Shown here piece after piece: positions 15,413-52,623 of a stretch of 55,467 bases of DNA. Location of the stretch: positions 1 to 55,467 of the forward strand of contig NZ_NFHH01000025.1 of assembly GCF_002161285.1 (NCBI RefSeq), read 5' to 3'. Each line of letters starts with the position of its first letter. The first letter of the stretch is position 1. Below the pieces are notes generated by a model that had not been told where the DNA came from, ran no database searches, and was given only the letters and a program-made list of their open reading frames with translations. Source of the DNA: Blautia sp. An81 (lineage in GTDB: Bacteria > Bacillota > Clostridia > Lachnospirales > Lachnospiraceae). Position numbers and translations under genes: made by a program.

Positions 15413-15802
15413 TTGAAGAAGATTAAGAGCTACACGGGTATCTGGAACGTGGAGAAAGTCTTATACGCAATCAATGACTTTACTCTCCCGTTTCCCGTTA
15501 CCTTTACCCAGATAACGTGGTTTGTCATTACGGAGTTTGCCGTCATTCTCTTAGGGGACTTACCGCCGTTATCACTGATCGAGGGGGCATTTCTGAAATA
15601 CTTCGGTATTCCCGTTGCCCTCACATGGTTTATGAGTCAAAAAACCTTTGACGGCAAGAAGCCTTACAGCTTTTTAAAGTCCATGCTGACCTATGCCGTC
15701 CGACCAAAAGTAACTTATGCAGGAAAAGCCGTGAAGCTGGAAAAGGAAGTGTTCAGCAAACCCGTCACGGCGGTTAGGAGTGTGATGTATGTTCCCGATT
15801 AA
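15413..15802 (+). CDS. TcpE-like conjugal transfer membrane protein (Tn916 Orf17)
   Basis: 129 residues with two hydrophobic helices (about 25-46 and 50-70) and the conserved ending SMLTYAVRPKVTYAGK. TcpE is an essential membrane component of the Tn916/pCW3 type of mating channel. TTG start at 15413 with AAAGGAG 11 nt before. Its end overlaps the ATPase gene by 14 nt. Confidence 0.87.
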   Translation: MKKIKSYTGIWNVEKVLYAINDFTLPFPVTFTQITWFVITEFAVILLGDLPPLSLIEGAFLKYFGIPVALTWFMSQKTFDGKKPYSFLKSMLTYAVRPKVTYAGKAVKLEKEVFSKPVTAVRSVMYVPD

Positions 15803-21363: not shown

Positions 21364-21384
21364 AAAGAAAGGAATGGAAATATC

Positions 21385-27540: not shown

Positions 27541-27582
27541 TGAGAACATGAAAAGAGGGCTACAAGAAAGGAATGGTTCTCA
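27541..27582 (+). promoter_or_regulatory. Hairpin covering the integrase ribosome site in ICE B
   Basis: TGAGAACA pairs with TGGTTCTCA. The right arm includes the ATG at 27573 and ends at the first base of the ATG at 27582, so the fold would trap the ribosome site GAAAGGA between the arms. Element A has an unrelated but similarly placed hairpin (1316). Confidence 0.45.
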
Positions 27583-28802
27583 TGGCAGTTAGCAGAAAAG
27601 ACCCGAAAGGGAGAAAATTAAGAGAGGGCGAAAGCTGGCGTAATGACGGCAGATACAGTTATCGTTTTACAGATATAAGGACAGGAAAACGTCGTACAAT
27701 CTACGCACAGGATTTACCAGAGCTTAGAGAGAAAGAAAAAAAGATTGCAAAGGATATGGACGATAACATTCTGACAGACAGTGCAATCAAGAAAATGACG
27801 TTAAACACCTTGTTCGAGCGATACATGGCGACCCGTGAACTGAAAGAGCCTACACGAGTGAATTACATTCGTGTATGGAATAATCGGGTGAAAGATGAAA
27901 TCGGCAACATTAAAGTTGTCCAGATGTTACCCTCTCACATTAAAGCCTACTATTCAAAATTGTCCAAAGCTGGATATGCTCATTCTACTATCAAGTATAT
28001 TAACAACATGATTTTTCCTGCGTTGGAAATGGCGGTTGATGATGATATTATCCGTAAAAATCCAGCAAAAGGTTCTATCAGTGATTATGGCAGACCAGCA
28101 GAGGAACGTGTGGCGTTAACAATCTCACAACAGGAAAAGCTCATTGATTTTGTGAAGCAGAGCAATGTCTACAATACCTATTATCCTATGCTTACGATTA
28201 TGATAGGCACAGGGTTAAGGTGTGGAGAGCTGATCGGTCTTACATGGAAAGACGTGGACACGAGAGCAAGACGCTTGAATGTAGACCACCAGCTTATTTA
28301 CAAGAATTATGGAGACGGCTGTCGCTTCCATATTTCTACTCCAAAGACAGACTCTGGTATTCGTGTGATACCTATGACGCAGGAAGTACAGAAAGCATTT
28401 GAAGAACAGAGGAAAATCAACTTCATGCTGGCGAAAGATAAGTCTTTTGAGGCGGACGGATATTCTGGTTTTGTTTTCACTGCTAAATCCGGCAGACCGC
28501 TTATGCCTTATGGTGTAAACAGTGTATTGTATAACATTGTGGACGCTTATAACAAAGCGGAAGTCCAAAAAGCAAAGAAAGAACACAGGAAAGCAGAACT
28601 GCTTCCAAAGGTTTCCGCTCATGTTATGCGACACACAGCCTGCACGAGAATGGCAGAGTGCCGTATGGACATTAAGGTATTGCAGTACATTATGGGACAC
28701 GCTCATTTTGATGTGACTATGGAAGTGTATAACCACTTGGGCGACAGGGCAAGGATTGAAAACGAGATAGCAAAGCTGGATAGTATGGCAGTGAACTTCT
28801 GA
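27582..28802 (+). CDS. Tyrosine recombinase / integrase of ICE B (Int-Tn class)
   Basis: About 406 residues. N-terminal arm-binding domain (MAVSRKDPKGRKL...), core-binding domain, and catalytic domain with Arg in GTGLRCGEL, HVMRHTACTRMAE, HAHFDVTMEVYNH and nucleophile Tyr383. ATG 27582 is chosen because GAAAGGA is 9 nt upstream; ATG 27573 is only 1 nt from it. It should recognise TTGGTGTCAA arms (3016, 28820) and the core TTAGCACTCA (2882, 28925). Clearly homologous to the element A integrase, though arm words differ. Confidence 0.94.
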   Translation: MAVSRKDPKGRKLREGESWRNDGRYSYRFTDIRTGKRRTIYAQDLPELREKEKKIAKDMDDNILTDSAIKKMTLNTLFERYMATRELKEPTRVNYIRVWNNRVKDEIGNIKVVQMLPSHIKAYYSKLSKAGYAHSTIKYINNMIFPALEMAVDDDIIRKNPAKGSISDYGRPAEERVALTISQQEKLIDFVKQSNVYNTYYPMLTIMIGTGLRCGELIGLTWKDVDTRARRLNVDHQLIYKNYGDGCRFHISTPKTDSGIRVIPMTQEVQKAFEEQRKINFMLAKDKSFEADGYSGFVFTAKSGRPLMPYGVNSVLYNIVDAYNKAEVQKAKKEHRKAELLPKVSAHVMRHTACTRMAECRMDIKVLQYIMGHAHFDVTMEVYNHLGDRARIENEIAKLDSMAVNF

Positions 28803-30838: not shown

Positions 30839-32557
30839 ATGGATTTGTGGCTGGAAAGCAAACCTAGTAATTCTGAACTTTGTACAGTTCTTGATAGACT
30901 TATAAAGAATTGGGAAACAGAAGTGGTAGAGTTTAAAGAAGCAGGAAAAGATTATGATAAAAATAAAATCGGACAGTATTTTTCGGCAATTAGTAATGAA
31001 GCCAATCTTAAAAGTTTGCAGCATGGTTGGCTGGTGTTCGGAGTAAGAAATAAGGATAAGGCAATTGTTGGATCGGAATACAGGATCAGTAAGGGGTTAG
31101 ATGCTTTAAAACAGGAAATATCAATAGGAACTACTGGAGGAATTTCTTTTATTGAAATATATGAAGTTTTTCCGATTGTCAAGGGGGAGAAGAAACGGGT
31201 TATATTATTTCAAATTCCTGCAGCTACTACAGCCACGCCGACTGGATGGTACGATCACTTTTATGGACGAAATGGGGAATCATTAGGCGCCTTGTCGGTT
31301 GAAGAAATAGACCGAATCCGTGGACAGGAAAAAAAGGACTGGTCTAAGCAGACGATTCCTAAAGCAAAACTTGAACATTTAAATAAACAAGCCATTCTTC
31401 TTGCTAGAGAGAATTATAAGAAGAAAATGAATAAATCCTATATAAGTGAAGAAGTCGATAGGATGACAGATGAGCAGTTTTTAACAAAGTTGAAATTAAT
31501 AATTAACGGTAAAATTACTAATGCTGCGATGTTACTTCTAGGGAATGAAGATTATGATTATCTGTTTAAAACTGTTCCTGAAGCTTCATGGAGAGTATTT
31601 GATTCCAGAAATGAGGTAAGTGATTATGAGATTTTTAAAATCCCATATATTACTTTAAGTGAAAGACTTTTCGGCAAGATCAGGAACCTGACATATAGAT
31701 ATATGCCAAATCAACTTACCTTATTTCCAACGGAGACAAAACAGTATGATATGTGGATCCTTAGAGAATTACTGAACAACTGTATCGCTCATTCAGAATA
31801 TACTTACGGAGGGAGAATATATCTAAATGAATATGAAGATAAAATAATTCTGACTAATCCTGGTTCTTTTTTACCTGGAAAAATTGAACCAATTTTGGAT
31901 CCGGCGTATAACCCACCTTTTTATAGAAACCAATTGTTGGCAGAGACAATGGTAAAGCTCAATATGATAGATTCTCAATCAACTGGCATCAGAAGGGTGT
32001 TTCGGATTCAAAAGGAACGGTATTTTCCGCTTCCCGATTATGATTTATCTAATAAACAGCAGGTAAGGGTTCGTGTATATGGGAAAATACTTGATGAAAA
32101 TTATTCACAAATATTATTTAAAAATCCTGATTTTGATTTAGAAACAGTGTTTTTGATCGACTGTGTGCAAAAAGGAATTAAGATTGACAAGTCGGCGGTA
32201 AAACATTTGAGAAAATTAAAGGTTATAGAAGGGAAAATGCCCAATATTTTTCTTTCAGCTACTATTTCAGAGACAATTGGCGAAAAAACCCAGTATGTAA
32301 AAAATAAGGCATTTGATGATAAGTATTACAAGGATTTAATAGTAAAATATCTTGAACAATATGGGAAGGCAAAAAAAAGAGATATCAGGACACTACTTTG
32401 GGATAAACTTCCGGAAGTAATGGAAGATAAACAAAAGGAAGATAAAATACGAAATTTACTTTCTTCTATGCGTAGAAAAAATATTATTACTACGGATTCA
32501 AGTAATAAGCAGGTTTCTTCTTGGATTTTAGTATCAAAATTTAAACAAGAAAAATAA
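30839..32557 (+). CDS. AlbA_2 (Schlafen-like) and GHKL-type ATP-binding protein
   Basis: 572 residues. N-terminal AlbA_2 domain (about 20-160: ETEVVEFKEAG...HGWLVFGVRN) followed by an ATPase-like domain (about 290-410: LRELLNNCIAHSEYTYGGRIYL...DKIILTNPGSF, the N- and G-box pattern of HATPase_c_4) and a C-terminal winged-helix region. Such proteins are frequent in mobile and defence loci and are annotated as transcription regulators; the precise role is not known. GGGGAG is 6-11 nt upstream. It is the only intact gene of element C. Confidence 0.75.
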   Translation: MDLWLESKPSNSELCTVLDRLIKNWETEVVEFKEAGKDYDKNKIGQYFSAISNEANLKSLQHGWLVFGVRNKDKAIVGSEYRISKGLDALKQEISIGTTGGISFIEIYEVFPIVKGEKKRVILFQIPAATTATPTGWYDHFYGRNGESLGALSVEEIDRIRGQEKKDWSKQTIPKAKLEHLNKQAILLARENYKKKMNKSYISEEVDRMTDEQFLTKLKLIINGKITNAAMLLLGNEDYDYLFKTVPEASWRVFDSRNEVSDYEIFKIPYITLSERLFGKIRNLTYRYMPNQLTLFPTETKQYDMWILRELLNNCIAHSEYTYGGRIYLNEYEDKIILTNPGSFLPGKIEPILDPAYNPPFYRNQLLAETMVKLNMIDSQSTGIRRVFRIQKERYFPLPDYDLSNKQQVRVRVYGKILDENYSQILFKNPDFDLETVFLIDCVQKGIKIDKSAVKHLRKLKVIEGKMPNIFLSATISETIGEKTQYVKNKAFDDKYYKDLIVKYLEQYGKAKKRDIRTLLWDKLPEVMEDKQKEDKIRNLLSSMRRKNIITTDSSNKQVSSWILVSKFKQEK

Positions 32558-39512: not shown

Positions 39513-39530
39513 AAGATGGGAGGTGTAATA

Positions 39531-40655
39531 ATGAAATATTCTATTGAAATTGGCAAGATTATAGAAGGTGCATTAAAGCACGATCAAACCAAAGTTATTA
39601 ATTATACAAAACAATTAGTATCAAAATTGGAAAAGGATAATGATTCCCGCTCTGCAACTAAATTTCAGCGTTTATTATCTGCTCAAGCCGAGACAGCCTT
39701 GACTCCTATGAATACTTCTAATCCTATTTCTATTCCTGTAGATACTGAATCAAGGATGAACCTTGCTGATATTATTTACCCATATCAAAATGATATTGAG
39801 GTTATTCTCTCAAAACGGAATGAGGAAAAATTAGACTCATTTATTTTAAGTTATCAAAATGCTGATAAACTTAATTCTCTTGGAATAAATGTATCTAACT
39901 CACTGCTGTTATATGGACCGCCTGGATGTGGAAAAACTAAATGTGCCTACTTAATTGCTAAACAATTAAATTTGCCACTCGTTGTTGCTAGGTTAGATAG
40001 TTTAATTTCTTCATACCTCGGTACTACTGCTAAAAATATTCGTAGCCTGTTTGAGTTTGCACAAAAAATGCCTTGTGTATTATTTTTAGATGAATTTGAC
40101 GCTATTGCCAAGGCTAGAGATGATAACAACGAGCTTGGAGAATTGAAACGCGTTGTTAATAGTCTTTTACAGAATATCGATACAATGAGCAAAGACAGCT
40201 TAATTTTAGCAGCTACCAATCATCAGCAGTTACTTGATCCTGCAATATGGAGAAGATTTGACTATAAATTGGAAATAGAATTGCCTGATAAAGACGCTAT
40301 TGTAGAATTAGTCACTTTATTTTCCAATGGTATATACGAATTTAGCCAAAAGGAAATTTTAGAAATTTCAACTTTACTGGATGGACAAAGTGGTTCTGAT
40401 ATAGAAGAGATTATAACCAAATCCATAAGAAATTCTGTTATCCATAACTCTCCTTTTAGCGTATCTAGTATTTATGAAGAACTGTTTATTACCCAAAATA
40501 TTATTCCTCAAAACTGTAATGATTCACGAGAATTATTAAAAATCAAGGCAAAATATTTACGAAACAAAGATTCAAAAGTTTTTAGTTTACAGACAATCGC
40601 TGACATCTTAGGTAGTTCAAAAACAACTATTCAAAAACTTGTGAAGGAGGTTTAA
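39531..40655 (+). CDS. ietA: AAA+ ATPase of an IetAS-type pair (IetA-like)
   Basis: 374 residues. Helical N-terminal domain (1-90), AAA core with Walker A GPPGCGKT (129-136) and Walker B VLFLDEFDAI (Asp187, Glu188), sensor-1 AATNHQ, arginine finger region AIWRRFD, and a C-terminal helix-turn-helix-like end (QTIADILGSSKTTIQKL). In IetAS, known first as a plasmid-stability pair in Agrobacterium and later as an anti-phage system, the ATPase is coupled to a subtilase. ATG 39531 has GGGAGGTG 7 nt upstream; the ATG at 39516 overlaps that site. Two nt separate it from the protease gene. Confidence 0.82.
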   Translation: MKYSIEIGKIIEGALKHDQTKVINYTKQLVSKLEKDNDSRSATKFQRLLSAQAETALTPMNTSNPISIPVDTESRMNLADIIYPYQNDIEVILSKRNEEKLDSFILSYQNADKLNSLGINVSNSLLLYGPPGCGKTKCAYLIAKQLNLPLVVARLDSLISSYLGTTAKNIRSLFEFAQKMPCVLFLDEFDAIAKARDDNNELGELKRVVNSLLQNIDTMSKDSLILAATNHQQLLDPAIWRRFDYKLEIELPDKDAIVELVTLFSNGIYEFSQKEILEISTLLDGQSGSDIEEIITKSIRNSVIHNSPFSVSSIYEELFITQNIIPQNCNDSRELLKIKAKYLRNKDSKVFSLQTIADILGSSKTTIQKLVKEV

Positions 40656-40657
40656 TT

Positions 40658-42934
40658 ATGAGCGAAAACAATCTACCAATAAAGTTAGTTCTTCCCAAAA
40701 CAACAGATATTGTTCCGAATACTGGGGGCGGAAAAATAAAATTTTTTGGAGAAGTAACTCCGGAGTTGAAAAAAGAAATAACTAACAAATTTGAAACTTT
40801 GCTATCTTTTTATTCAGATGTTTTTAATGAGAATGAAGCAATTCCCGCTGTGGGGAAAATAACGGTAAAACCTGAAGCTATTGCAAAATCACATAAACCA
40901 TCTGATCTGTGTAGGAATTGTCCAATTATCGGTAGCGAAGATTTAGATGAACTCTATATTAAGGTCAATAGAAAAAACATTCAGGAAACAATAGAGATGG
41001 TAAAAAACCCACCATCACAAAAATTTCAAGCCAACATGACCGCGATAGTTGATATTCAACCTATTACGCCAGAAGAAAAAATTTCACCAACACTCCAGTC
41101 TATTGCACAGGAAGATTTTAACTCTATTAAAAAAGTTATTAAACTTAAAGTCTTTGATTTTGATGATGACTTTGATAATGCACAAATTTGGGACTATGTG
41201 ACACGAAAATTATGTTTACTCCATTTTGAAGATAAATATGAAATTATTTCATATGGTGATCAGATTAAATTTTTGAAAATGGAAGTTACTTCTTATGATG
41301 ATATTATTAAACTGGCTTCTATTAACGGAGTAAAAACTGTTAGTTTTTTTCAAGAGTACTCTCTTCCTCTGAGTGATTTTTCGACGACTGAATTACAAAC
41401 CTTATTGGATTCTGAGTACAGGGATAGCGATGTTACCATCGGAATTATTGATGGTGGAATAAGTGACGATAATCCATTTTTAAAGCCTTATGTTGTTGCA
41501 CGTGAAGAATATGTAAATAAAGTTTATCAAAATCCACAACATGCCACATTTATTGCATCGACTATACAATATGGAAATGTTTTAAATAATATTTCTGCAT
41601 CCACAGCTTACCGTTTTAAATTTGTAGATATTGTTGCCATTCCAAATAGTGATAAAGATTTTGGATTAACTGATTCCATTACAGAAGATGATCTGATGGA
41701 GATTATTGAAGAAGTAATGGAGAAATATTCGTCTACTACTAAAATATGGAATTTATCTCTAGGCATTGAAAATAAACCTTGTGATGGTTCAATGTCTGAT
41801 TTAGGAGTGTTTTTAGATTATATTCAAGACACATACCATGTACAAGTCTTTGTTTCTAGTGGAAATGTAAATAGCCTGCCCCTTAGAAATTGGCCACCTC
41901 AAAAAGGTATTGGAGAGCATGACCGCCTTATATCACCAGCTGATTCTATTCGTGCTATAACAGTAGGTTCTGTTGCCTTATTTGATTCCGCAGATTCGAT
42001 TGTTAAATTTAATGAGCCTTCACCTTTTAGCCGAAGAGGACCTGGCGCCAACTATATTGTTAAGCCTGACATTGTTGATTATGGTGGTAATTGTTCTACA
42101 TCATACAAAATTGATGGTTTAGGAGTAAAAGGATTAGATTCTGGCGGAAAAATAGTTGAGGGTAATGGTACAAGTTATTCAACTCCTCGATCGTTACAGA
42201 AATATGCCTCTATATATGAAGAAATGATCGAGCCTGATTTACTCCTTGCTAAAGCAATGTTAATACATTCTGCCAGAATGAACTCTCGTGAGTTGTTGGA
42301 TGAACATCCTGACAATATTAAATATTATGGATTTGGGATTCCTTCTGCTGATACACAAGATATTTTACAATGCAGTAAAGATTGCGTAACGCTTGTTTTC
42401 AAACAAAAAATATCTCAGGGTTCACATCTGGAAATGTATGATTTCCCATATCCAAAGTCTCTTATCAAAAACAACAAATATATTGGTGAAATAGGAATGA
42501 CCCTTGCCTACTTACCGCCTCTTGACCCGAAATATGGTCGTGAATATTGTAGAACTAATATTGATGTTAGTTTTGGAACATATTCATACATAGATGGCGG
42601 AAAAACTGATTATAAAGGACAAGTTCCTCTTGAAACAAAGTGGGATGAAAAATTTGAAGCAGCGCGAGTAGAACACGGGTTTAAATGGAGTCCTATAAAA
42701 TCCTATTACAGAAAACTAAGCAGAGGAATACGCCTAGAGGACGGATGGAAACTTAGAGTTGACTTAACTCCACGAAATGGGCTGTATGTACCATCGCAAG
42801 AATTTGTTTTAATTATTACCATAAAAGATTCAAATGGTAATGATATTTATTCAGAGATAACTAATGGATTAAGAGAAAGAGGTTATGCAACTAATAATAT
42901 CGAAACGAAATATCAGGTTCGTCAAAGACAATAG
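40658..42934 (+). CDS. ietS: Subtilisin-like S8 serine protease of the IetAS-type pair (IetS-like)
   Basis: 758 residues, no signal peptide, so cytoplasmic. An N-terminal region of about 250 residues precedes the S8 domain. The triad is complete: Asp265 in IIDGG, His295 in NPQHATF, Ser506 in GNGTSYSTPR. The His motif is not the classic HGTHVA, as is usual in this subfamily. A C-terminal beta-sandwich-like domain follows (about 600-758). Expected to be held inactive until a trigger and then to cleave host or phage proteins with its AAA partner. AAGGAGG lies before the ATG. A terminator follows. Confidence 0.85.
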   Translation: MSENNLPIKLVLPKTTDIVPNTGGGKIKFFGEVTPELKKEITNKFETLLSFYSDVFNENEAIPAVGKITVKPEAIAKSHKPSDLCRNCPIIGSEDLDELYIKVNRKNIQETIEMVKNPPSQKFQANMTAIVDIQPITPEEKISPTLQSIAQEDFNSIKKVIKLKVFDFDDDFDNAQIWDYVTRKLCLLHFEDKYEIISYGDQIKFLKMEVTSYDDIIKLASINGVKTVSFFQEYSLPLSDFSTTELQTLLDSEYRDSDVTIGIIDGGISDDNPFLKPYVVAREEYVNKVYQNPQHATFIASTIQYGNVLNNISASTAYRFKFVDIVAIPNSDKDFGLTDSITEDDLMEIIEEVMEKYSSTTKIWNLSLGIENKPCDGSMSDLGVFLDYIQDTYHVQVFVSSGNVNSLPLRNWPPQKGIGEHDRLISPADSIRAITVGSVALFDSADSIVKFNEPSPFSRRGPGANYIVKPDIVDYGGNCSTSYKIDGLGVKGLDSGGKIVEGNGTSYSTPRSLQKYASIYEEMIEPDLLLAKAMLIHSARMNSRELLDEHPDNIKYYGFGIPSADTQDILQCSKDCVTLVFKQKISQGSHLEMYDFPYPKSLIKNNKYIGEIGMTLAYLPPLDPKYGREYCRTNIDVSFGTYSYIDGGKTDYKGQVPLETKWDEKFEAARVEHGFKWSPIKSYYRKLSRGIRLEDGWKLRVDLTPRNGLYVPSQEFVLIITIKDSNGNDIYSEITNGLRERGYATNNIETKYQVRQRQ

Positions 42935-42992: not shown

Positions 42993-43044
42993 CTCTGTAG
43001 TTATCCTGATTCCATTTATCTTTCATCTTTTTGAAAAAATAAAG

Positions 43045-43090
43045 TACACGGTAAATAGCAGGTATTGCGGTACCTACTATTTACCGTGTA
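43045..43090. repeat. 46-bp near-perfect palindrome between two defence loci
   Basis: Left arm TACACGGTAAATAGCAGGTA and right arm TACCTACTATTTACCGTGTA are complementary at 19 of 20 positions around the 6-nt centre TTGCGG. No T-run follows. Too long and regular for chance. Possibly an operator, a cruciform-type recombination site or an RNA hairpin. Confidence 0.75.
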
Positions 43091-43178
43091 TAAAGTATAT
43101 AATATAGCATTCAGTTATATAGAAAAATAATGGTTATTATGATAAAATTTAAGATATATATTCACGTAGAATAGGAGG

Positions 43179-43218
43179 CTCTCTCGGAGAAAATATTACA
43201 AGAGAGTTATTATTTTTT
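43179..43218 (+). terminator. Attenuator-like hairpin in the leader of the helicase-nuclease operon
   Basis: CTCTCT pairs with AGAGAG across 16 nt, followed by TTATTATTTTTTT. Preceded by AATAGGAGG with no in-frame gene. It lies 35 nt before the first gene, so read-through would set operon expression. Confidence 0.5.
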
Positions 43219-43252
43219 TAACGAAAGATGATACTGGAACAAGGTGGTAAGT

Positions 43253-44836
43253 ATGTTTAAGATAACAGAAGGTGATTTTAAAAAACAAAAATATGGAGAA
43301 GAAAGTTATCTGTCAAACTGGCCAATGCTTTACATATTAGAAAATGGCAAACAGGCATATATCGGGCAATCTAATCATGTGATAAATCGCATGTCTCAAC
43401 ATTATCATTCTATAGATAAGCGTATTTTTGATAAAGTACATTTCATCTATTCTTCGAAATTTAATCAATCAGTTACGTTCGATTATGAATCGAAACTCAT
43501 TCAGTATATTGTTGCGGATGAACTATATGAGGTTCGTAATAAAAATGCTGGGATGGCTGATAAAGAATATTACGGAAAAAAAGAATATGATGAAAAATTC
43601 CATGTTTTGTGGCGAAGTCTTCAGCGCTCAAAATTAGTTAAGCATTCTTTGGAAGAACTTGAAAATTCTGATTTGTTTAAATATTCACCGTTCAAGGAGC
43701 TGAATAATGATCAGAGAGCAGCGGTGGATAAAATTATGGATTCCTTAAAAAAGGAAGATAATCAAACAATTGTTGTAAATGGGATGCCTGGAAGTGGAAA
43801 GACAATCGTTGCAATTTTTTTAATGAAATATTTGAGAGACAGTGATGAGTTTAGAGATAAAAAAATTGGTTTTGTAGTACCTCAGACTTCATTAAGAAAA
43901 ACATTGAAAGGGATTTTTAAAAGCATTTATGGACTAAAAGCATCAGATATCTTATCTCCGTCGGATGTAACAAAACAGAATTACGATATTTTGCTTGTGG
44001 ATGAAGCGCATAGGCTTCATCAATATAAGAATATTTCATATATGGGCCCCTTTAAGGCATGTTGTGAGCGCATAGGATTAACTACAGAAAGTGACGAATT
44101 AGACTGGATTCTGCACCAATGCAAATGTCCCATACTATTTTATGACGAAATGCAAGTGGTAGGACCATCGGGAATTGATGTACAAAGATTTCGTAGGAAG
44201 ATGAAGAATGATCAATCAAAACGTATTTTAACGTATTTTAATCTCCTTACCCAGATGAGAGTAAGATGTGGAAATGACTATATTTCTTATGTCAAAGAAT
44301 TATTATCTGGAACTGTGAAAGAGAAGAAGAATTTCTCAAATTATGATCTGAAAATAGTGACAGACTTTAAAAAATTTAATCAGCTGATGTATCAGAAAGA
44401 AAAAGAAGTTCAGTTAGTAAGAATGGCGGCAGGATATGCCTGGGATTGGATCAGTAAAAAAAATAAGTCATTATACGATATTGAAATTCAGGGAATAAAA
44501 AAACAATGGAATCATTGTACAGAGGGATGGGTCCTTTCGAAAGAAGCCGTTGATGAAGTGGGCTGTATACATTCTACTCAGGGATACGATTTGAATTATG
44601 GCTTTATAATTATGGGAAATGAAATAGGCTATGATACAGATAAAAAACGTATCATCATTCGACCACAAGAGTATTTTGATCAAAACGGTAAAAAAACAGC
44701 AGATTATGGAGAACTATTAGAGTATATTCAACATATTTATTATGTACTGATGACCAGAGGAATTCAAGGCACATATCTTTATATATGTGATCCTGATTTG
44801 AGAGAATATTTTTCACAGTATATAGATGTACAGTAA
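43253..44836 (+). CDS. GIY-YIG nuclease fused to a DUF2075 superfamily-1-type helicase
   Basis: 527 residues. N-terminal GIY-YIG-like domain with YIL (27-29) and YIG (36-38), then Arg in VINRMSQH. The motor domain has Walker A GMPGSGKT (177-184) and DEAH (250-253), followed by the STQGYDLNYGF motif typical of DUF2075. ATG 43253 has AAGGTGG 7 nt upstream. First gene of an eight-gene same-strand run. It probably translocates on and cuts foreign or modified DNA. Confidence 0.85.
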   Translation: MFKITEGDFKKQKYGEESYLSNWPMLYILENGKQAYIGQSNHVINRMSQHYHSIDKRIFDKVHFIYSSKFNQSVTFDYESKLIQYIVADELYEVRNKNAGMADKEYYGKKEYDEKFHVLWRSLQRSKLVKHSLEELENSDLFKYSPFKELNNDQRAAVDKIMDSLKKEDNQTIVVNGMPGSGKTIVAIFLMKYLRDSDEFRDKKIGFVVPQTSLRKTLKGIFKSIYGLKASDILSPSDVTKQNYDILLVDEAHRLHQYKNISYMGPFKACCERIGLTTESDELDWILHQCKCPILFYDEMQVVGPSGIDVQRFRRKMKNDQSKRILTYFNLLTQMRVRCGNDYISYVKELLSGTVKEKKNFSNYDLKIVTDFKKFNQLMYQKEKEVQLVRMAAGYAWDWISKKNKSLYDIEIQGIKKQWNHCTEGWVLSKEAVDEVGCIHSTQGYDLNYGFIIMGNEIGYDTDKKRIIIRPQEYFDQNGKKTADYGELLEYIQHIYYVLMTRGIQGTYLYICDPDLREYFSQYIDVQ

Positions 44837-44855
44837 GAAAAAAGGGGAGGTCTAT

Positions 44856-45194
44856 ATGAAACAGGAGACAATAGATGAAGTATTGAAGTTTAGAGACGAT
44901 AGGAACTGGAAACAGTTTCATAACCCGAAAGATTTGGCAATTTCCATCAGTCTGGAGGCGGCCGAACTGTTGGAAGTATTTCAATGGAGTGCAGATGATG
45001 TCTGGTGTGATGAGAAAAAAGACAAGGTCAGGGAAGAACTGGCGGATGTACTGAATTATTGTATCTTAATGGCAGATACCTGCGGGTTGGATCTGGACGA
45101 GATCATTCAGGAAAAGGTGAAGAAAAACGCTGAAAAGTATCCGGTAGAAAAAGCATACGGACATAAAGAAAAATATACGGAGCTGGGAGAATGA
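44856..45194 (+). CDS. MazG-like nucleotide pyrophosphohydrolase
   Basis: 112 residues, all-alpha. Metal-binding pattern EAAE (34-37) and EELAD (60-64), the ExxE...ExxD signature of MazG/dUTPase-like enzymes, which hydrolyse (d)NTPs to monophosphates. AGGGGAGG 8 nt before the ATG. Next to restriction-like nucleases it could remove non-canonical nucleotides or deplete dNTPs. Confidence 0.85.
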   Translation: MKQETIDEVLKFRDDRNWKQFHNPKDLAISISLEAAELLEVFQWSADDVWCDEKKDKVREELADVLNYCILMADTCGLDLDEIIQEKVKKNAEKYPVEKAYGHKEKYTELGE

Positions 45195-45195
45195 C

Positions 45196-46299
45196 ATGCA
45201 GCTGCCACATTCTGATATATTGGATATTGCCCATTTTTCCAGATTGTTTGATAACAAAAGCGAGTGTTACAAATTATTTTGGTTTCAGGCGATTGCACGG
45301 AAAATAAAAGAAGGACAGAAAACAATTACATTTGAAACGTTGATTGATGAAATGATAGCAGATGCCTGGTATATGGTTTTGGAGTACCGGTTGAATCTTG
45401 GCCCTAATGATGCACTGGAACGGGTGGTCCACCGGCTGGGTGAGATCAGTAATATGAAATCCTGTGAGAAGAAAGACGTTGTTCTGGAGTATGTGAAGAC
45501 ATGTAAAGATAAAGAAGTTTTAGCCATGAAACGGACGTTATCTTACAATGTTCCGTATCGTTTACAGGCGCCTTTTATGGAATCTATGAAAGGAAAAGAA
45601 TGGAACAGATCCGGGGAAAATCTTGCGGAAAGAATTAATCAGGAACAAAGGCTGATGTATTATTTTTTGCAATTCAGTGGCCTGAACACTCAAATCCAGA
45701 TACAGGAAGAATGGGTGGATTATATTGACCGTAATTATGAAATTATACAGGGATGGGTGGAATTAAATCTGATCCAGTATCTTCAGAGAAGGAACCCCAG
45801 CGTCCCGGGAATCGTGGACAAGCTTTATCCACCGAAAGAGCGGAACCTGGAAAAGGTGAAAAAGTATTGGAAAATGCTTGTTTCCATAAAACCTGTCTGC
45901 GAAATCTATGGGGAAAATCCACTCAATGAAAAGAATATTTCCATTGATCATTTTGTACCCTGGTCGTATGTGGCACATGATGAATTGTGGAATCTGACGC
46001 CTACAACCCGGAGTATCAACAGCAGTAAAAGCAATAGCCTTCCGGACTGGAATATGTATTTCCCATTATTATGTAAAATGGAATATCTGTCCTATGAATT
46101 GATGTGGGAATATCCGGAAGTACATAAAGCCTTTGACAAATGTGCGAAGGAGCATCTGAACAATCAGGAGATCAGGCATAAACTTTATCAGAGTGGTCTG
46201 TCGGAAAGGGAGTTTTCTGGGCGTTTGGAGGAGGTTATGTTTCCGGTCTATCAGTCGGCAAAAAGTATGGGATTTTCCAGTTGGAGCTTGAGGACATAA
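45196..46299 (+). CDS. HNH endonuclease-domain protein
   Basis: 367 residues. The C-terminal half carries an HNH/beta-beta-alpha-metal site: CEIYGENPL, then SIDHFVPWSY (His252), ELWNLTPT (Asn266) and INSSKSN (about 275-280). The N-terminal 200 residues are helical with no known domain and may bind DNA or partners. Starts 1 nt after the MazG stop. Confidence 0.82.
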   Translation: MQLPHSDILDIAHFSRLFDNKSECYKLFWFQAIARKIKEGQKTITFETLIDEMIADAWYMVLEYRLNLGPNDALERVVHRLGEISNMKSCEKKDVVLEYVKTCKDKEVLAMKRTLSYNVPYRLQAPFMESMKGKEWNRSGENLAERINQEQRLMYYFLQFSGLNTQIQIQEEWVDYIDRNYEIIQGWVELNLIQYLQRRNPSVPGIVDKLYPPKERNLEKVKKYWKMLVSIKPVCEIYGENPLNEKNISIDHFVPWSYVAHDELWNLTPTTRSINSSKSNSLPDWNMYFPLLCKMEYLSYELMWEYPEVHKAFDKCAKEHLNNQEIRHKLYQSGLSEREFSGRLEEVMFPVYQSAKSMGFSSWSLRT

Positions 46300-46300
46300 G

Positions 46301-46894
46301 ATGATGTGTAATTACTACGAAAGCAATGCAGAACACTACGCGGCAGAAACAATTTACGCTGATATGTCAGAACAGTATCAAAGCGTTCTGCCTCTGTTAA
46401 AAAAAGGAGCAAAGATTCTGGATGTGGGAAGCGGGAGCGGACGTGATGCATGTTATTTCCAGAAACAAGGATATCAGGTGACTGCATTGGAACCGTCGAA
46501 GAATCTAGGCAGAGAAATCCGGAAAGTGTTTTCTGGAGAAATTGTATGTTCGGATATCCAGAGTTATCAGACGACGGAACGGTACGATGGGATCTGGGCG
46601 TGTGCGTCATTGATTCATCTGCAGGAAGAAGAAATACTTTGCTTTTTTAAGAAGATTGACATGTATCTGAATGACAATGGAATTGTATATGTTTCCGGGA
46701 AAAGTGGAATTTCCACAGGAGAAGTGGAGGACGGACGTTTTTTTCTTGAGTTTACTGAACAGCTGGTAGAGAAAATCCTGACGGTAAATAAACAATTGCA
46801 GCTGGAGCAGCTGTGGTATACCGAAGATGTAAGCGGGAGACGGGGATTTCGGTGGCTGAATGTGGTTTTAAGATTGAGAAGAAATAACTCTTAA
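46301..46894 (+). CDS. Class I SAM-dependent methyltransferase
   Basis: 197 residues. Motif I ILDVGSGSGRDA begins at residue 39; motif II ends ALEPS, and the acidic loop EEEILCFFKKI follows DGIWACASLIHL. No DPPY/NPPY motif, so it is not a standard DNA adenine or cytosine-N4 methylase; a small molecule, RNA or modified base are all possible substrates. Starts 1 nt after the HNH gene stop. Confidence 0.83.
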   Translation: MMCNYYESNAEHYAAETIYADMSEQYQSVLPLLKKGAKILDVGSGSGRDACYFQKQGYQVTALEPSKNLGREIRKVFSGEIVCSDIQSYQTTERYDGIWACASLIHLQEEEILCFFKKIDMYLNDNGIVYVSGKSGISTGEVEDGRFFLEFTEQLVEKILTVNKQLQLEQLWYTEDVSGRRGFRWLNVVLRLRRNNS

Positions 46895-46912
46895 TGATAA
46901 GCGGTGAGAGCA

Positions 46913-47740
46913 ATGAAAGTAGTTTTAAGTCGTAAAGGATTTGATAGCGCTAATGGCGGTATCATGAGTCCTATTTTTGAAGATGGGACAATGGTTTCAT
47001 TCCCTATCCCAAGTAAAGATATGGAGAAGGACAACATTCGGTATGACGAATTGTTTTGTGATGGAATATGTATGAAAACAATTTTGAATGCGCTTGGGTA
47101 TCGGGGAGTAGAGCATTGCCATTTGGATCCCGATCTGGTGAAAGACAGAAGGCGGGAATCAATTCGTGAGTGGACACCGGCTTTTGGACAGATTAATCAA
47201 GCTGCAACTTATCTAAAGAATCAACATATTTCTGAAGGAGATCTATTTCTTTTCTTTGGCAATTTTCGTCATATAAAGCAGAATCATGGAAAGTATGAAT
47301 ATGTTCGAAGAACGGATAAAACAGAGGATACTTATCTGGGAATGCCGCTGCAGGTCGTATGGGGATATTTACAGGTTGGGGGCATTATCACTGATCCTGA
47401 CGAGCAAAAGAAATTGTTTTGGCATCCACATGCCTGTGATAAACGTATTTATGAAGAGAAGAATAATGTGATTTTTACAGCAAGCAAACAACTTTCCTTT
47501 GCTCCCGAAATGCCGGGTGCAGGTACATTTCTGTATGATAAAAAACGTGTGCTGACGATGCCTGGAAAATCAAAAGCGACCTGGAAATATTGCAAAGCAT
47601 ATGATACTGATAACATCGAAAGCAATCGAAAGAATTCTGAGAAGGGTATTGATGAAGGTATTTATTATGCCGGGATCTGGCAGGAACTTGTCTTAAAAGA
47701 AAATCGTATTTCTGAAGAATGGGCGAAATCATTATTTTAG
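46913..47740 (+). CDS. Nmad3-like protein (putative nucleotide-modification-associated domain)
   Basis: 275 residues. The N-terminus MKVVLSRKGFDSANGGIMSPIF and the motifs EGDLFLFFGNFR and LQVVWGYLQVGGII fit the Nmad3 family, predicted by comparative genomics to belong to DNA base-modification systems; no enzymatic activity is established to my knowledge. ATG 46913 has GGTGAG 5 nt upstream; GTG 46904 overlaps it. Its presence beside a methyltransferase, MazG and NUDIX genes is what points to modified nucleotides. Confidence 0.6.
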   Translation: MKVVLSRKGFDSANGGIMSPIFEDGTMVSFPIPSKDMEKDNIRYDELFCDGICMKTILNALGYRGVEHCHLDPDLVKDRRRESIREWTPAFGQINQAATYLKNQHISEGDLFLFFGNFRHIKQNHGKYEYVRRTDKTEDTYLGMPLQVVWGYLQVGGIITDPDEQKKLFWHPHACDKRIYEEKNNVIFTASKQLSFAPEMPGAGTFLYDKKRVLTMPGKSKATWKYCKAYDTDNIESNRKNSEKGIDEGIYYAGIWQELVLKENRISEEWAKSLF

Positions 47741-47786
47741 TAAATCTGTTGTTGAAGATGTGACACAGAGGTATAGTGAGGGATTT

Positions 47787-48248
47787 ATGGAGAAAAGGTA
47801 CTTGTCAGATTCAAAAGTTCAAAGAGAAGCGGAAGAAATAATATTTGAAAATTTAAAAAGCAAGTTAAAATGTAATGATTTACAGAGTAATGTAAGAATA
47901 CTGATTTCAAAGGAGAATAGTATATGGATTTGTCCCGATTTTTATTCAGAGGAAAAACATATAATAGGTGAGATTCATACCCATCTTGGGAAATTAAAGT
48001 CTGCGCAATTACATAAAATAGAAGGCGATATTTTAAAAATGCTTCTTTTTGAGAAGTGTCATAATGGAGAACAATATAGAAAAATGATTGTCGTTTGCGA
48101 TATTGAGGAATACACTCAGTTGAGTGGAAATTCATTTGTGGCAGAGGCAATCAGGCAATTTGATATAGAGTTGCATTATATTCCATTGGAACAAACACTG
48201 ATTAATGAGATAAAACAAGCTATGCAAGAGCAGAATTTATATCATTAG
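47787..48248 (+). CDS. Small protein, possibly PD-(D/E)XK-type nuclease
   Basis: 153 residues. PD at residues 50-51 followed by GEIH (61-64) and GKLK on the next helix recall the PD...(D/E)xK fold, with His where Lys is usual, so activity is uncertain. Strand pattern IWICPDFY and MIVVCDIEEY supports a restriction-like core. ATG 47787 has GTGAGGG 4-5 nt upstream; GTG 47760 is in frame but lacks a ribosome site. Confidence 0.5.
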   Translation: MEKRYLSDSKVQREAEEIIFENLKSKLKCNDLQSNVRILISKENSIWICPDFYSEEKHIIGEIHTHLGKLKSAQLHKIEGDILKMLLFEKCHNGEQYRKMIVVCDIEEYTQLSGNSFVAEAIRQFDIELHYIPLEQTLINEIKQAMQEQNLYH

Positions 48249-48310
48249 TGAGAAAAGGTAAATTGTGATACAATATATACAACTATAAAACCTCGAGGAG
48301 GTTACTGGTA

Positions 48311-51250
48311 ATGCAGTTACATAATGATAAAATAACAACATTGCAGACAGCAATCCAGACAGCATATCTGGATCATACTATAAATTCTAATCTGGCATAT
48401 CGACCGGAATTTATTTCAAATAATTATAAGCTTGGGAAAAAAGTTCTTGTTTCAATTGAAGAAGAATTACAAAGATGTGAAGAATTTTTTATCAGTGTCG
48501 CTTTTATTACCAAGAGCGGAATTACGCCACTTCTTCAGACTTTAAAAGATCTGGAACAAAGAAATATTCCGGGGAAAATCCTGACGACAAATTATCTTAT
48601 GTTCAGTGAACCAGAGGCCCTGGAAAAGCTGGCAGGATTAAAAAACATCGAATTGAAAATGTTTGTTACTGGTGCAGAAACCGGCGGATTTCATACAAAG
48701 GGATATATTTTTCGTGAAGAAGAAATTTATCGGATTATTATCGGAAGTTCCAATATGACACTCAGTGCCATTACAAAGAACAAAGAGTGGAATACCAAAA
48801 TTGTCTCTACAGAACAGGGTGAGTTGACGCAGTCAGTTTTACAGGAATTCGATGAGTTATGGCGGGATGAGCATTCCTTAGCATTTGAAGATTTTATTGA
48901 TGCTTACCGTCAAGAGTATCTGAATGAAAAAATGATTCGTAAGCAGAAGCAGCAGGCGGTATCAGAGCAGGTCGTAGAGCTTGAAAATTATCGGTTAAAG
49001 CCCAATAAGATGCAGGTCGCTTTTGTGAAAAATGTAATGGAAATGAGAGCACAGAACATAGATAAAGCCCTTCTTTTAAGTAGTACAGGGACAGGAAAAT
49101 CCCTGGCTTCCGCATTTATGCTGCGGGAGATGGGGACAAGAAGGGCTCTGTTTATTGTTCACAGAGAGCAGATTGCCAAGCAGACATTGAAAAGTTACAA
49201 AAGAGTTTTTGGATCATCAAGAACTTACGGACTTTTATCAGGAAATAGCAGAGAGTTGGGGGCAGAATTTTTATTTGCCACTATGCAGATGATGTCGAAA
49301 GAAGAAATTAGGTCTCATTATAGTCCAGAGGACTTTGATGTTATTATTCTGGACGAATGTCATCATGTGGGTGCAGAGAGCTACCAGAAGATTATGCAGT
49401 ATTTCAAGCCAAAGTTCTGGCTGGGAATGACTGCTAGTCCGGATACCAATCAGTATGATATCTATTCGATTTTTGATCATCATATTGCCTATGAAATACG
49501 TCTTCAGCAGGCTCTTGAGGAAGATTTACTATGCCCTTTCCATTATTTTGGAATTACAGATTTGGAAATAAATGGAGAAGTATTTGATGATAATGCGGGC
49601 GTAAAGAACTTTTCGAATCTGATTTCTGATGCCCGAGTCGATTATGTGATTGACAAGGCAAATTATTATGGATTTAGCGGAGACCGAGTAAAAGGGCTGA
49701 TTTTCTGCAGCCGAAAAGATGAGGCAAAAGAATTGTCGAAAAAGTTTAATGAGCGTGGATTGAGAACGGAGGTTCTGACTGGAGAAGATACTCAGGAACG
49801 ACGTGAAAGTGTGATTGCCAGACTGACAAATGATGAAGATGGTGAGGATCAGCTGGATTACATTTTTACCGTAGACATTTTTAATGAAGGTGTCGATATC
49901 CCGGAAATCAATCAGGTTATTATGCTAAGACCGACTCAATCTCCGGTAGTGTTTATACAGCAGTTAGGCCGAGGACTCAGAAAATATGAAGGAAAAGAAT
50001 ATGTAGTGATTCTTGATTTCATTGGGAATTATATGAACAACTTTATGATTCCTATCGCTTTGTCTGGGGACAGAAGCTATAACAAAGACGCAATGCGCCG
50101 TTACATCAGAGAAGGAGCCAGAGTTATTCCGGGAAGTTCTACTATTCACTTTGATGAAATATCAAAAAAGAGAATCTATGCGTCTATTGATACAGCAAGA
50201 ACCAATGATATGAAGCTGCTTAGAGAATCTTATAAAACTTTGAAATATAAGTTGGGAAGGATTCCAACAATAGGGGATTTTAAAAAATTCGGATCTGTAG
50301 ACGTGACAAAAATTTTTGAAAAGTGCGGATCTTATCATAACTTTTTGAAAAAATATGAAACAGAATATCAGGTGCATCTGACGAATCAGGAAGAAATTAT
50401 AATAGAATATTTTTCAAAGAAACTGATAGCTTACAAAAGAATTCATGAGCTGGAAATGCTGAGAATGCTGATCAGTAGGGAAAATCGTCTTTTGCAATAT
50501 CGGAAGCTCCTGCAGGAAAAATATCATGTTGGCATGAATGAACAGGTAGAGAGATCGGTGATCCGCAATCTGAAAAATGAATTTCCGAAAGAAGAAGAGC
50601 GGCGTAAATATTCGGACTGTGATCTTGTAGAAAAAAATACAGATGGAAGCTATTCTCTTTCCTCAAAATTTCAGAAGGCACTCTTGAATAAAAACTTTAG
50701 GCAGATGATCTTGGAATTGTTGGATTTTGGTATAGAACAGTGGAAGGAAAAGTATGGACAAATTTATAGAGATACCAATTTCACATTATATCAAAAATAT
50801 ACATATGAAGATGTATGTCGTTTGCTTAACTGGAACAAAAACTTAAATGCTCAGAATATTGGAGGCTATTATTATGATAGTGATACGAAGACGCTTCCTG
50901 TATTTATTAATTACTACAAAACAGAAGATGCAATTGCTTATGAAGATCGTTTTGTATCGGAAAGTCATTTAATTGCACTTTCCAAACATCCAAGAAAAAT
51001 TACATCCAGCGATGCTGTTCATATTTACAAGCAGTCTGAAGAGGATAAAAATAATCGGATTTTTCTGTTTGTCAGAAAAAATAAGGATGATAATGAAGCA
51101 AAAGAGTTCTATTTTCTGGGGGAAATCTTTGCAGAGGGAACTCCGAGACAGATTTACATGGAAAAAACAAAGGACAATGCCTTTGAGATAGACTATCGAT
51201 TAGACGTGCCGGTAAGAAGTGATATCTATGATTATATTGTGAGTGATTGA
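48311..51250 (+). CDS. PLD nuclease - SF2 helicase - DUF3427 fusion protein
   Basis: 979 residues. PLD-like domain (about 35-190) with HTK at 128-130 and GSSNMT at 145-150; one HKD-type motif, so it would work as a dimer. Helicase part: Walker A STGTGKS (258-264), DECH box (348-351), motif VI QQLGRGLRK. C-terminal DUF3427 region (about 640-979). Related proteins are common in phage-defence islands. CGAGGAGG is 8 nt before the ATG. It is the largest gene of the operon. Confidence 0.88.
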   Translation: MQLHNDKITTLQTAIQTAYLDHTINSNLAYRPEFISNNYKLGKKVLVSIEEELQRCEEFFISVAFITKSGITPLLQTLKDLEQRNIPGKILTTNYLMFSEPEALEKLAGLKNIELKMFVTGAETGGFHTKGYIFREEEIYRIIIGSSNMTLSAITKNKEWNTKIVSTEQGELTQSVLQEFDELWRDEHSLAFEDFIDAYRQEYLNEKMIRKQKQQAVSEQVVELENYRLKPNKMQVAFVKNVMEMRAQNIDKALLLSSTGTGKSLASAFMLREMGTRRALFIVHREQIAKQTLKSYKRVFGSSRTYGLLSGNSRELGAEFLFATMQMMSKEEIRSHYSPEDFDVIILDECHHVGAESYQKIMQYFKPKFWLGMTASPDTNQYDIYSIFDHHIAYEIRLQQALEEDLLCPFHYFGITDLEINGEVFDDNAGVKNFSNLISDARVDYVIDKANYYGFSGDRVKGLIFCSRKDEAKELSKKFNERGLRTEVLTGEDTQERRESVIARLTNDEDGEDQLDYIFTVDIFNEGVDIPEINQVIMLRPTQSPVVFIQQLGRGLRKYEGKEYVVILDFIGNYMNNFMIPIALSGDRSYNKDAMRRYIREGARVIPGSSTIHFDEISKKRIYASIDTARTNDMKLLRESYKTLKYKLGRIPTIGDFKKFGSVDVTKIFEKCGSYHNFLKKYETEYQVHLTNQEEIIIEYFSKKLIAYKRIHELEMLRMLISRENRLLQYRKLLQEKYHVGMNEQVERSVIRNLKNEFPKEEERRKYSDCDLVEKNTDGSYSLSSKFQKALLNKNFRQMILELLDFGIEQWKEKYGQIYRDTNFTLYQKYTYEDVCRLLNWNKNLNAQNIGGYYYDSDTKTLPVFINYYKTEDAIAYEDRFVSESHLIALSKHPRKITSSDAVHIYKQSEEDKNNRIFLFVRKNKDDNEAKEFYFLGEIFAEGTPRQIYMEKTKDNAFEIDYRLDVPVRSDIYDYIVSD

Positions 51251-51298
51251 TGGTAGAAAACGTAAGAATAACTAAAAGAAACAGAATGGAGAAATGTG

Positions 51299-51685
51299 AT
51301 GAAGACTGTACGTGTAGTAGCAGCGGTAATTAGAAAAGATGATAAAATTTTTGCCACCCAAAGAGGATATGGAGAATTCAAGGATGGATGGGAATTCCCT
51401 GGAGGAAAGATTGAGGCTGGAGAATCACCTGAACAGGCCCTTGCCAGAGAAATCAAAGAAGAGTTGGATACCGATATCAATGTGGGAGAACTGATTGATA
51501 CAATCGAATACGACTATCCGAACTTTCATCTGTCTATGGACTGCTTTTGGTGTGATATTGTGAAAGGTGGATTGGAGTTGAAAGAGCATGAAGCAGCTAA
51601 ATGGCTGACAAAAGAGAAGTTGTACAGTGTAGAGTGGTTGCCAGCAGATGTGGGATTAATTGAAAAGATAAAAAAGGAATTGTAA
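51299..51685 (+). CDS. MutT-type NUDIX hydrolase
   Basis: 128 residues. Complete NUDIX box G36x5E...REIKEEL (36-58). This family cleaves (d)NTPs, typically 8-oxo-dGTP or other altered nucleotides. ATG 51299 has GGAG 9 nt upstream. It lies 48 nt after the DUF3427 helicase, a pairing I recognise from other Firmicutes. Probably nucleotide clean-up or sensing within the system. Confidence 0.9.
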   Translation: MKTVRVVAAVIRKDDKIFATQRGYGEFKDGWEFPGGKIEAGESPEQALAREIKEELDTDINVGELIDTIEYDYPNFHLSMDCFWCDIVKGGLELKEHEAAKWLTKEKLYSVEWLPADVGLIEKIKKEL

Positions 51686-51837
51686 GGATTACTGGTATAA
51701 TCCCAAAGTTCTGTGTATTCTTTGTTTATTTAAGTTACTGTGAAAGAGGAAGTTTAGGAAATTGAGATAGAGAAGTAGGCAGCGATTGACAAGTCAGTAG
51801 AGTTTTCGAAAGAACTGGAGTATAGGAGACCAGTATT

Positions 51838-52623
51838 ATGAATTATTTTGATGATGAGTTAAAAATAATAGAGAAAGTACAAAATTTAGAAACAGAATCA
51901 GTTTTACTTGCAACATCCAGTGACGAAGAAGCGGAAGTTTTTCAGTCAATATATAATAGTGACAAATGGAAAGATTGGATTAATTCTTCTGGAAAGTCTG
52001 ATCCGCCACCTGATTTTTATAATGATAGATTAGGATTTATGATGGATGTGATGAGGATAGATGATCACGCATTTGTAAATAAAGACGGTAAGATTATTAA
52101 TCCTACAAATATGCGGGAAAGTAGAATACAAAAAGAAATTAAACAGAGTGGAATACTTGATGTTTTTCCAAATGTAAAATCTATAATGGTGAATGCTATA
52201 ACTGATTTACCTACAAATGAAGATCATAATTATAGTTTTTACTTAAACAACTTTAGACGTGTAGTTATGCAACACAATGAAAGCATTGGTTTGTATCGTA
52301 AAAACCATCCGGGATACAAGACGATATTTTTGGTTTTTGATGAGTCGAGTGGCTATATTGAATCTGAATCTCTTATAAATCAGCATGTGATTAAAGGGTA
52401 CCCACATTATTGGTTTGCTGATCAGGCTTTTGTAGAAGTTATAAAACGGGTGAGTGCGGATTTTATTTTTTGGTTTGCACCGTTTAAGTATTATGAATTA
52501 TTATCAGAACAAAATTTTCCTGAATTGCCCCAGGCATGTATATTCTCATTAAAGAATTTAAGCAAATTAATTGCTAAACCGATAAAATATGAAGCAAATT
52601 TAATGAGGAGTGCAGAAAAATGA
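51838..52623 (+). CDS. Unknown protein, probably truncated by an in-frame stop
   Basis: 261 residues, soluble, with no recognised domain; marks are DKWKDWINSSGKSDPPPDFYN and GYKTIFLVFDESSGYIE. The TGA at 52621 is followed in the same frame by 32 more codons of plausible protein (DGYNIEIEYLEKVLSKNREW, then WIDPKKRKKSFLQ) to TAA at 52720-52722. A full protein of about 294 residues is likely, broken by one nonsense change. AGGAGAC precedes the ATG. It may be a separate defence gene or an unrelated cargo gene. Confidence 0.6.
   Translation: MNYFDDELKIIEKVQNLETESVLLATSSDEEAEVFQSIYNSDKWKDWINSSGKSDPPPDFYNDRLGFMMDVMRIDDHAFVNKDGKIINPTNMRESRIQKEIKQSGILDVFPNVKSIMVNAITDLPTNEDHNYSFYLNNFRRVVMQHNESIGLYRKNHPGYKTIFLVFDESSGYIESESLINQHVIKGYPHYWFADQAFVEVIKRVSADFIFWFAPFKYYELLSEQNFPELPQACIFSLKNLSKLIAKPIKYEANLMRSAEK

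Follow-up and report, generated by a model that had tools for sequence, protein, structure and literature searches.

An eight-gene cassette in Blautia sp. An81 that may couple modification-dependent restriction to the removal of modified dCTP

SauUSI is a restriction enzyme in which phospholipase D (PLD) domains with HxK motifs are combined with a superfamily 2 (SF2) ATPase and a C-terminal SRA-fold domain, and it cuts at 5-methylcytosine (5mC) or 5-hydroxymethylcytosine (5hmC) (PMC7913695). The DUF3427 domain is a predicted binder of modified DNA (PMC7159879). Hydrolases of modified nucleotides have also been characterized: Q5LBB1 of Bacteroides fragilis (PDB 3gwy) acts on 5-Me-CTP, 5-methyl-dCTP and 5-hydroxymethyl-dCTP (the source writes 5-MeOH-dCTP) with kcat/Km values of 6.7e6, 4.8e6 and 4.4e6, respectively, while 5-OH-dCTP is used about 50-fold less (8.5e4) and canonical nucleoside triphosphates (NTPs) give much lower values (PMC5158307). 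DCTPP1 decreases cellular 5-methyl-dCTP (PMC4491611), and both Orf135 (NudG) and RS21-C6/DCTPP1 have been named as specific 5-methyl-dCTP hydrolases (PMC10742078). Here, we analyzed a 55,467-nt stretch of Blautia sp. An81 DNA (contig NZ_NFHH01000025.1; hereafter the window), in which a SauUSI-type enzyme, a Nudix hydrolase and a DCTPP1-like MazG protein are encoded within one cassette of eight genes.

The SauUSI-type enzyme and the nucleotide hydrolases of the cassette

The cassette is a co-oriented run of eight open reading frames (ORFs) on the + strand, positions 43244-51685 in the ORF list of the window, with junctions from gene 1 to gene 8 of -11, 1, 1, 9, 19, 62 and 45 nt (Table 1). This agrees with a first-pass annotation of the window, which had described eight genes following each other on one strand with short gaps. 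Most of its domain labels hold as well: the Schlafen group 3 (SLFN-g3, former DUF2075) helicase, the MazG-like PF12643, HNH_4, the class I methyltransferase, Nmad3, the PLDc_2, ResIII and DUF3427 domains of gene 7 and the NUDIX domain all score above Pfam cut-offs. In contrast, the GIY-YIG label of gene 1 (PF01541) reaches only 18.9 bits against a cut-off of 22.6, with PADLOC candidate PDC-S14 matching the same stretch. The PD-(D/E)XK nuclease proposed for gene 6 was rejected (no Pfam or PADLOC match; NCBIfam E values of 0.036 and worse; PDB only at an E value of 1.4), which removes one of the four nuclease folds counted earlier.

Gene 7 matches SauUSI (PDB 7clg) over its full length (7clg residues 11-952; E value, 2.4e-197), so for this gene the earlier statement that the locus matches no named system no longer stands. 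Read by eye off the alignment, it keeps the HxK motif and four of the six SRA base-pocket residues named in PMC7913695. For gene 8, the best PDB match is 3gwy (E value, 1.3e-28), followed by a MutT and, in third place, the CTP pyrophosphohydrolase 2rrk. Gene 2 shows family-level homology to DCTPP1/RS21-C6 and, by eye, retains seven of the eight pocket residues that PMC4491611 names for DCTPP1; its inner ATG at 44856 corresponds to the start residue of the relative in locus L001. The link to altered bases suggested by the first-pass annotation is borne out to this extent: gene 7 is a nuclease of the SauUSI type, which depends on 5mC or 5hmC, and genes 2 and 8 are, by homology, nearest to hydrolases of 5-modified dCTP.

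We give about even credence to a composite cassette in which modification-dependent restriction is coupled to the removal of modified dCTP, so that self DNA would be protected, phages with modified DNA would be starved, or both. The SRA domain of gene 7 would read 5mC or 5hmC in incoming DNA, ATP would drive translocation, and the PLD domain would cut. The gene 8 Nudix and gene 2 MazG proteins would hydrolyze 5-methyl-dCTP and 5-hydroxymethyl-dCTP; this would keep modified cytosines, such as those recycled from degraded phage DNA, out of the cell's own DNA and thereby prevent self-cutting, and phages that need modified precursors would be starved by the same hydrolases. Genes 1 and 3 may serve as further nuclease arms, and Nmad3 (gene 5) is a candidate for reading bases or nucleotides. 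The model builds on the observation that SauUSI reads 5mC/5hmC and that the Nudix neighbor of gene 7 resembles an enzyme removing the triphosphates of exactly those two bases. If true, it would explain the position of SauUSI-type enzymes beside nucleotide hydrolases, give a function to the recurrent Schlafen-helicase/MazG pair, and answer how a cell that destroys 5mC/5hmC DNA escapes poisoning by recycled modified nucleotides.

Modules of the cassette and their joins elsewhere

Relatives of the eight genes were located by single-sequence searches with the window proteins, after which profiles built from few members per family were run over all fetched loci. Some profile seeds came from counted loci and match by construction (for MazG, six of seven seeds; for SauUSI and Nudix, three each in addition to those of the window; for the methyltransferase, most), and the single-sequence search had already found nearly all of these matches. 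Genes were called adjacent within 400 nt for the SLFN-MazG and SauUSI-Nudix pairs.

The cassette is a set of separately recurring modules rather than one obligate system: module A (GIY-YIG-like/SLFN-g3 helicase and DCTPP1-like MazG), module B (HNH and methyltransferase), module C (Nmad3 and the orphan gene 6) and module D (SauUSI-type enzyme and Nudix). The SLFN helicase matched at any strength in 63 of 391 genomes, and in the 30 matches given loci, the MazG gene is adjacent in 20 (window included), always on the same strand. Ten loci lack this adjacency. Four of them (L122, L130, L132 and L143) start at or close to the beginning of a contig, and in two more (L127 and L140) a MazG gene lies farther off. 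The full SauUSI set contains 24 places (E value, <1e-60), 21 of which have an adjacent Nudix gene; without the window, these are 20 of 23, and 15 of the 20 lie on one strand. The misses are L177, with Nudix 1.6 kb off, and L191 and L196, both near a contig end. Twenty of 25 other DUF3427 places were counted (four were not fetched, and G342 lies within L167), with Nudix in 9, another MazG type in 4 and either in 12. The 15 strong HNH matches besides the window have an adjoining methyltransferase in five cases (with 4-nt overlaps in L150 and L155), another MazG type in three (one divergent, L162) and canonical MazG in one (L149). The latter locus, on contig 16 of the same genome (9135-12959), carries a second HNH gene that is 87% identical, then canonical MazG and an AIPR protein. 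Apart from gene 2, no other PF12643 MazG was found in the genome of the window.

Among the best 80 of 556 confirmed Nmad3 relatives on genome contigs (1.22 Mb in all), Nmad2 adjoins Nmad3 in 31 by profile, whereas SauUSI occurs in 2, at 2.2 kb from Nmad3 in L018. An SLFN-g3 helicase lies directly beside Nmad3 in L068 (2477-4345) and L095 (8085-9986), with differing N-termini, and MazG adjoins it in L015. Strong Nudix and strong MazG matches each occur in one of the 80 loci, in both cases the cassette and SauUSI carrier L021, which argues that the pairings above are not a general effect of abundance. Of these 80 loci, all eight genes are found in L021 only, and there in partly broken form, so neither the dedicated eight-gene system of the first-pass annotation nor Nmad3 as the anchor of such a system could be upheld. 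Co-occurrence, which that annotation had proposed as a check, gave a divided answer: the units are found apart from each other, and one of them corresponds to a known system, yet elsewhere they are recurrently rejoined in operon-like form.

L021, from Merdibacter massiliensis, shows that the cassette recurs beyond chance. It matches the window from 43099 to 51684 in pieces of 89-94% DNA identity, the longest being 43099-48077 (94%), with alignment gaps within genes 6 and 7. In this copy, Nmad3 is fragmented, gene 6 is shortened and parts are missing from inside SauUSI. The ORFs of the helicase, MazG, HNH, methyltransferase and Nudix proteins are all open. A search of plasmids for a near copy of 43000-51900 found none.

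Parts of different modules are joined on one strand, in varied orders, in six further loci, with join gaps of -4 to 52 nt in L148, L150, L154, L155 and L164. L148 combines a SauUSI-like helicase, Nudix, HNH and a MazG of another type; L150 has SauUSI, Nudix, HNH and methyltransferase with joins of 0, -4 and -4 nt. L152 carries SLFN, MazG, a second MazG, HNH, a flavin-oxidase-like protein, SauUSI and Nudix; L154 has SLFN, MazG, a second MazG and HNH. In L155, SLFN and MazG are followed by a second SLFN-type helicase, HNH, methyltransferase and HEPN-AbiU2, and in L164 the order is Nudix, SauUSI, MazG and SLFN. L183 is a looser case, in which Nudix and SauUSI come first and MazG lies farther on, together with a fragmentary SLFN gene. 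Of the 30 SLFN loci, 26 were extended (all except L136, L143, L146 and L147), and six of these (the window, L152, L154, L155, L164 and L183) contain an HNH or DUF3427 helicase gene, versus 0.027 expected at uniform spread, an estimate that uses round figures of 2.7 Mb for genome size and 16 kb for the window. If islands raise the gene density, 1.36 such loci are expected at 50-fold (P = 0.003) and 2.7 at 100-fold (P = 0.058). One further extended SLFN locus, L168, encodes a SauUSI-like helicase absent from the DUF3427 matches.

Further neighbors were noted at these and related loci. L183 (12998-16336) and L164 (11051-14348) contain a HIT-type hydrolase (by eye in L164), a second SauUSI-like/PLD-type helicase and another MazG beside SLFN-MazG. 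The flavin-oxidase-like protein of L152 (8421-8930; PNPOx_N), between HNH and SauUSI, has a similar counterpart beside MazG-Nmad3 in L015 (10357-10869). L176 (Sinorhizobium pSymB) provides an HNH-DUF3427 link from another phylum: a DUF3427 protein, a RecQ-type helicase and an HNH relative are encoded there consecutively on the same strand. On Hymenobacter and cyanobacterial plasmids (L170, L173 and L174), HNH relatives lie near cysteine desulfurase, with DUF4007 genes close by in L170 and L173; we take these surroundings to be, perhaps, a phosphorothioation context.

The extra hydrolases bear on another interpretation, in which MazG and Nudix are effectors triggered by the nucleases, breaking down dCTP upon infection so that phage replication stalls. 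DCTPP1 does hydrolyze dCTP (PMC4491611), NudG hydrolyzes CTP and dCTP according to the title of a cited reference, and other nucleotide hydrolases stand beside the modules (the HIT protein in L183, the second MazG type in L152 and L154). However, no switch or sensor that would hold such enzymes off was recognized, the closest relatives act in housecleaning, and for gene 8 the closest one is much less active on canonical NTPs (PMC5158307). We therefore regard nucleotide depletion as improbable.

A more serious competitor, though one we still rate below an even chance, is that independent modules are stacked as cargo of a mobile defense island without a joint function, the hydrolases serving housecleaning or aiding their own nuclease only. 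Nineteen of the 26 extended SLFN loci lack HNH, Nmad3 and a strong SauUSI match (among them, L226 and L227 are only about 5 kb long, and L232 has a weak match to the SauUSI profile), so module A can do without module D. SauUSI is rare among the best 80 Nmad3 loci, as given above, and HNH was sought in 20 further SauUSI loci and found in none. A known defense system, IetAS, lies directly upstream, and in L021 it is Nmad3 and SauUSI that are broken while the five other named genes remain open. The one-strand joins of -4 to 52 nt in differing orders, on the other hand, weigh against stacking.

For the coupling of restriction to modified-dCTP removal, the same 19 loci count as a difficulty, and they are not the only one. 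Island clustering alone could explain the joins, given that 6 of 26 is unsurprising at 100-fold density. Two of the six SRA pocket residues are changed in gene 7, and gene 2 lacks a histidine at the position aligned with DCTPP1 His38 (both by eye). Gene 8 scores below the NCBIfam thresholds for NudG (PRK10546; 91.2 versus 156 bits) and MutT (TIGR00586; 91.3 versus 97.9 bits), and its second PDB match is a MutT, so 8-oxo-dGTP is a possible substrate. Finally, the host genome holds at least one C5 methyltransferase elsewhere (one full gene, plus a second ORF with two partial matches), so its DNA may contain 5mC anyway.

Extending the coupling beyond the window is a tentative step, and we consider it rather unlikely. 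Modification-dependent nucleases would then generally travel with their own modified-dNTP hydrolase as an antidote, as in SauUSI with Nudix, the GIY-YIG/Schlafen helicase with DCTPP1-like MazG, and HNH with another MazG. Restriction would act at two levels, on the DNA and on the pool of precursors, and the GIY-YIG/Schlafen-MazG pair would represent a modification-dependent restriction system that has no name yet.

Remaining genes and surroundings

Table 1 Features of the cassette and its leader region, in window coordinates
Feature	Length (amino acids)	Position	Strand	Evidence
Gene 1, GIY-YIG-like N terminus and Schlafen group 3 (former DUF2075) helicase	530	43244..44836	+	PF09848, 197 bits (cut-off, 24)
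Gene 2, MazG-like all-alpha pyrophosphohydrolase		44826..45194	+	PF12643, 84.8 bits; PDB 4qgp, 3.5e-23; RS21-C6, 1.6e-18
Gene 3, HNH_4 nuclease	367	45196..46299	+	PF13395, 42.6 bits (cut-off, 22)
Gene 4, class I S-adenosylmethionine methyltransferase	197	46301..46894	+	Methyltransf_25, 41.6 bits
Gene 5, Nmad3 protein	278	46904..47740	+	PF18754, 179.7 bits
Gene 6, orphan protein	162	47760..48248	+	No Pfam or PADLOC match
Gene 7, SauUSI-type PLD-SF2-DUF3427 (SRA) type IV restriction enzyme	979	48311..51250	+	DUF3427, 261 bits; PADLOC mREase_IV, 676 bits
Gene 8, NudG/MutT-like Nudix hydrolase	129	51296..51685	+	NUDIX, 70.7 bits; PADLOC PDC-S07, 176 bits
Long hairpin between IetS and gene 1		43045..43090	.	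Hairpin scan; fold of 43035-43100, z -7.26
Short hairpin followed by a U-run, gene 1 leader		43178..43219	+	Fold of 43160-43235, z -1.70; 12/200 shuffles as good

Gene 1, queried against solved structures, gave no match. In gene 3, the HNH motif residues are invariant across 17 aligned sequences, window included. Its structure model, checked for an McrA-like SRA or other base-reading beta domain, is mainly helical but weak (mean predicted local distance difference test [pLDDT] score of 66, built from 4 sequences), and the fold search returned no match at an E value of ≤0.001. Relatives of gene 3 are present in two viral contigs.

The suggestion of the first-pass annotation that the locus marks its own DNA is weak, since the families that gene 4 matches are generic class I methyltransferases, with none of the Pfam DNA-methyltransferase families among them, although gene 4 also matches part of PADLOC mad2 from the MADS system (54 bits). 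In its full form, this reading assigns the modification of the cell's own DNA or nucleotides to the methyltransferase and Nmad3, with unmarked DNA as the target of the nucleases. The mad2 match would fit, as would the HNH-methyltransferase adjacency in 5 of 15 further loci, twice with overlapping genes. However, SauUSI attacks marked rather than unmarked DNA, and Nmad3 has no significant match to a known fold; we consider self-marking very improbable.

The Nmad3 model itself is confident (pLDDT, 93.8). Compared to the PDB with Foldseek, it had no significant fold match, the best E value being 0.7 or worse, so the assignment as an EVE/PUA-like base reader is not supported by fold. The top rows at that level are, as we take them, EVE domains (including a THYN1 structure with 5mC DNA) and Lon N-terminal domains, and a role of Nmad3 in reading bases or nucleotides is at present a lead. 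The Nmad names reportedly come from Iyer et al. 2013. A phage origin of Nmad3 gained no support: the protein had no match in the phage collection and none in viral contigs, where a single-protein query reaches close relatives only. Distant relatives occur on two plasmid records (Burkholderia and Cupriavidus), with the other seven genes absent within 9 kb by phmmer. The single relative found for gene 6 is distant; it is carried by a Pseudoalteromonas plasmid, flanked by conjugation and transporter genes.

Directly 5' of the cassette and on the same strand, positions 39516-42934 encode the IetAS (IteA/IteS) anti-phage pair, with IteA slightly over and IteS under the NCBIfam cut-off. This is a separate, known two-gene system; the Merdibacter copy starts matching only at 43099 and thus without IetAS. 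IetS was also taken as an island control, matching at <1e-100 in 5 of 278 genomes (counted by eye), and was uninformative in that role. The long hairpin lies just beyond the cassette edge at 43099; the short hairpin and U-run might be an attenuator in the gene 1 leader, which is a weak possibility.

Farther away, the window contains what we take to be two tyrosine integrases (1393-2604 and 27573-28802) and Tn916-type conjugation genes (15789-22278), named by eye from their translations, suggesting an integrative element with defense cargo. A 744-residue ATPase with a weak SMC_N match (11731-13965) lies in a stretch of 28% G+C amid conjugation-type genes. Another Schlafen-related gene, at 30839-32557, encodes a protein with SLFN_AlbA_2 and HATPase_c_4 domains.

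Comparison with known systems

The hydrolases of the cassette have described counterparts. One of the closest solved structures to gene 2 is RS21-C6/DCTPP1, which is, however, a mammalian housecleaning enzyme without a restriction partner, and gene 2 differs at the His38 equivalent (by eye). For gene 8, the closest solved structures include both Q5LBB1 (3gwy, first) and NudG/Orf135 (2rrk, third), but its score lies under the NudG equivalog cut-off. The gene 8 Nudix corresponds to the known PADLOC candidate PDC-S07. IetAS adjoins the cassette on the same strand but is a system of its own. MazG and a nucleotide-modification-associated domain are among the predicted, unvalidated defense domains of DefensePredictor (PMC13092281).

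SauUSI is among the closest described systems. It shares the PLD-SF2-DUF3427/SRA architecture with gene 7 over the full length, together with the HxK motif (by eye). Gene 7 differs in two of the SRA pocket residues and in sitting within a co-oriented run with seven further genes. The adjacency of SauUSI and Nudix is already known: Streptococcus SauUSI homologues lie beside MutT homologues in the legend of Fig. 9 of PMC7641849, which assigns the pair no function, and MazG and Schlafen are absent from the main text of that paper. Among the papers listed from the open-licence literature, mostly judged by title and the start of the abstract, we met no other pairing of restriction with pool hydrolases and neither the MazG-SLFN pair nor the joined operons.

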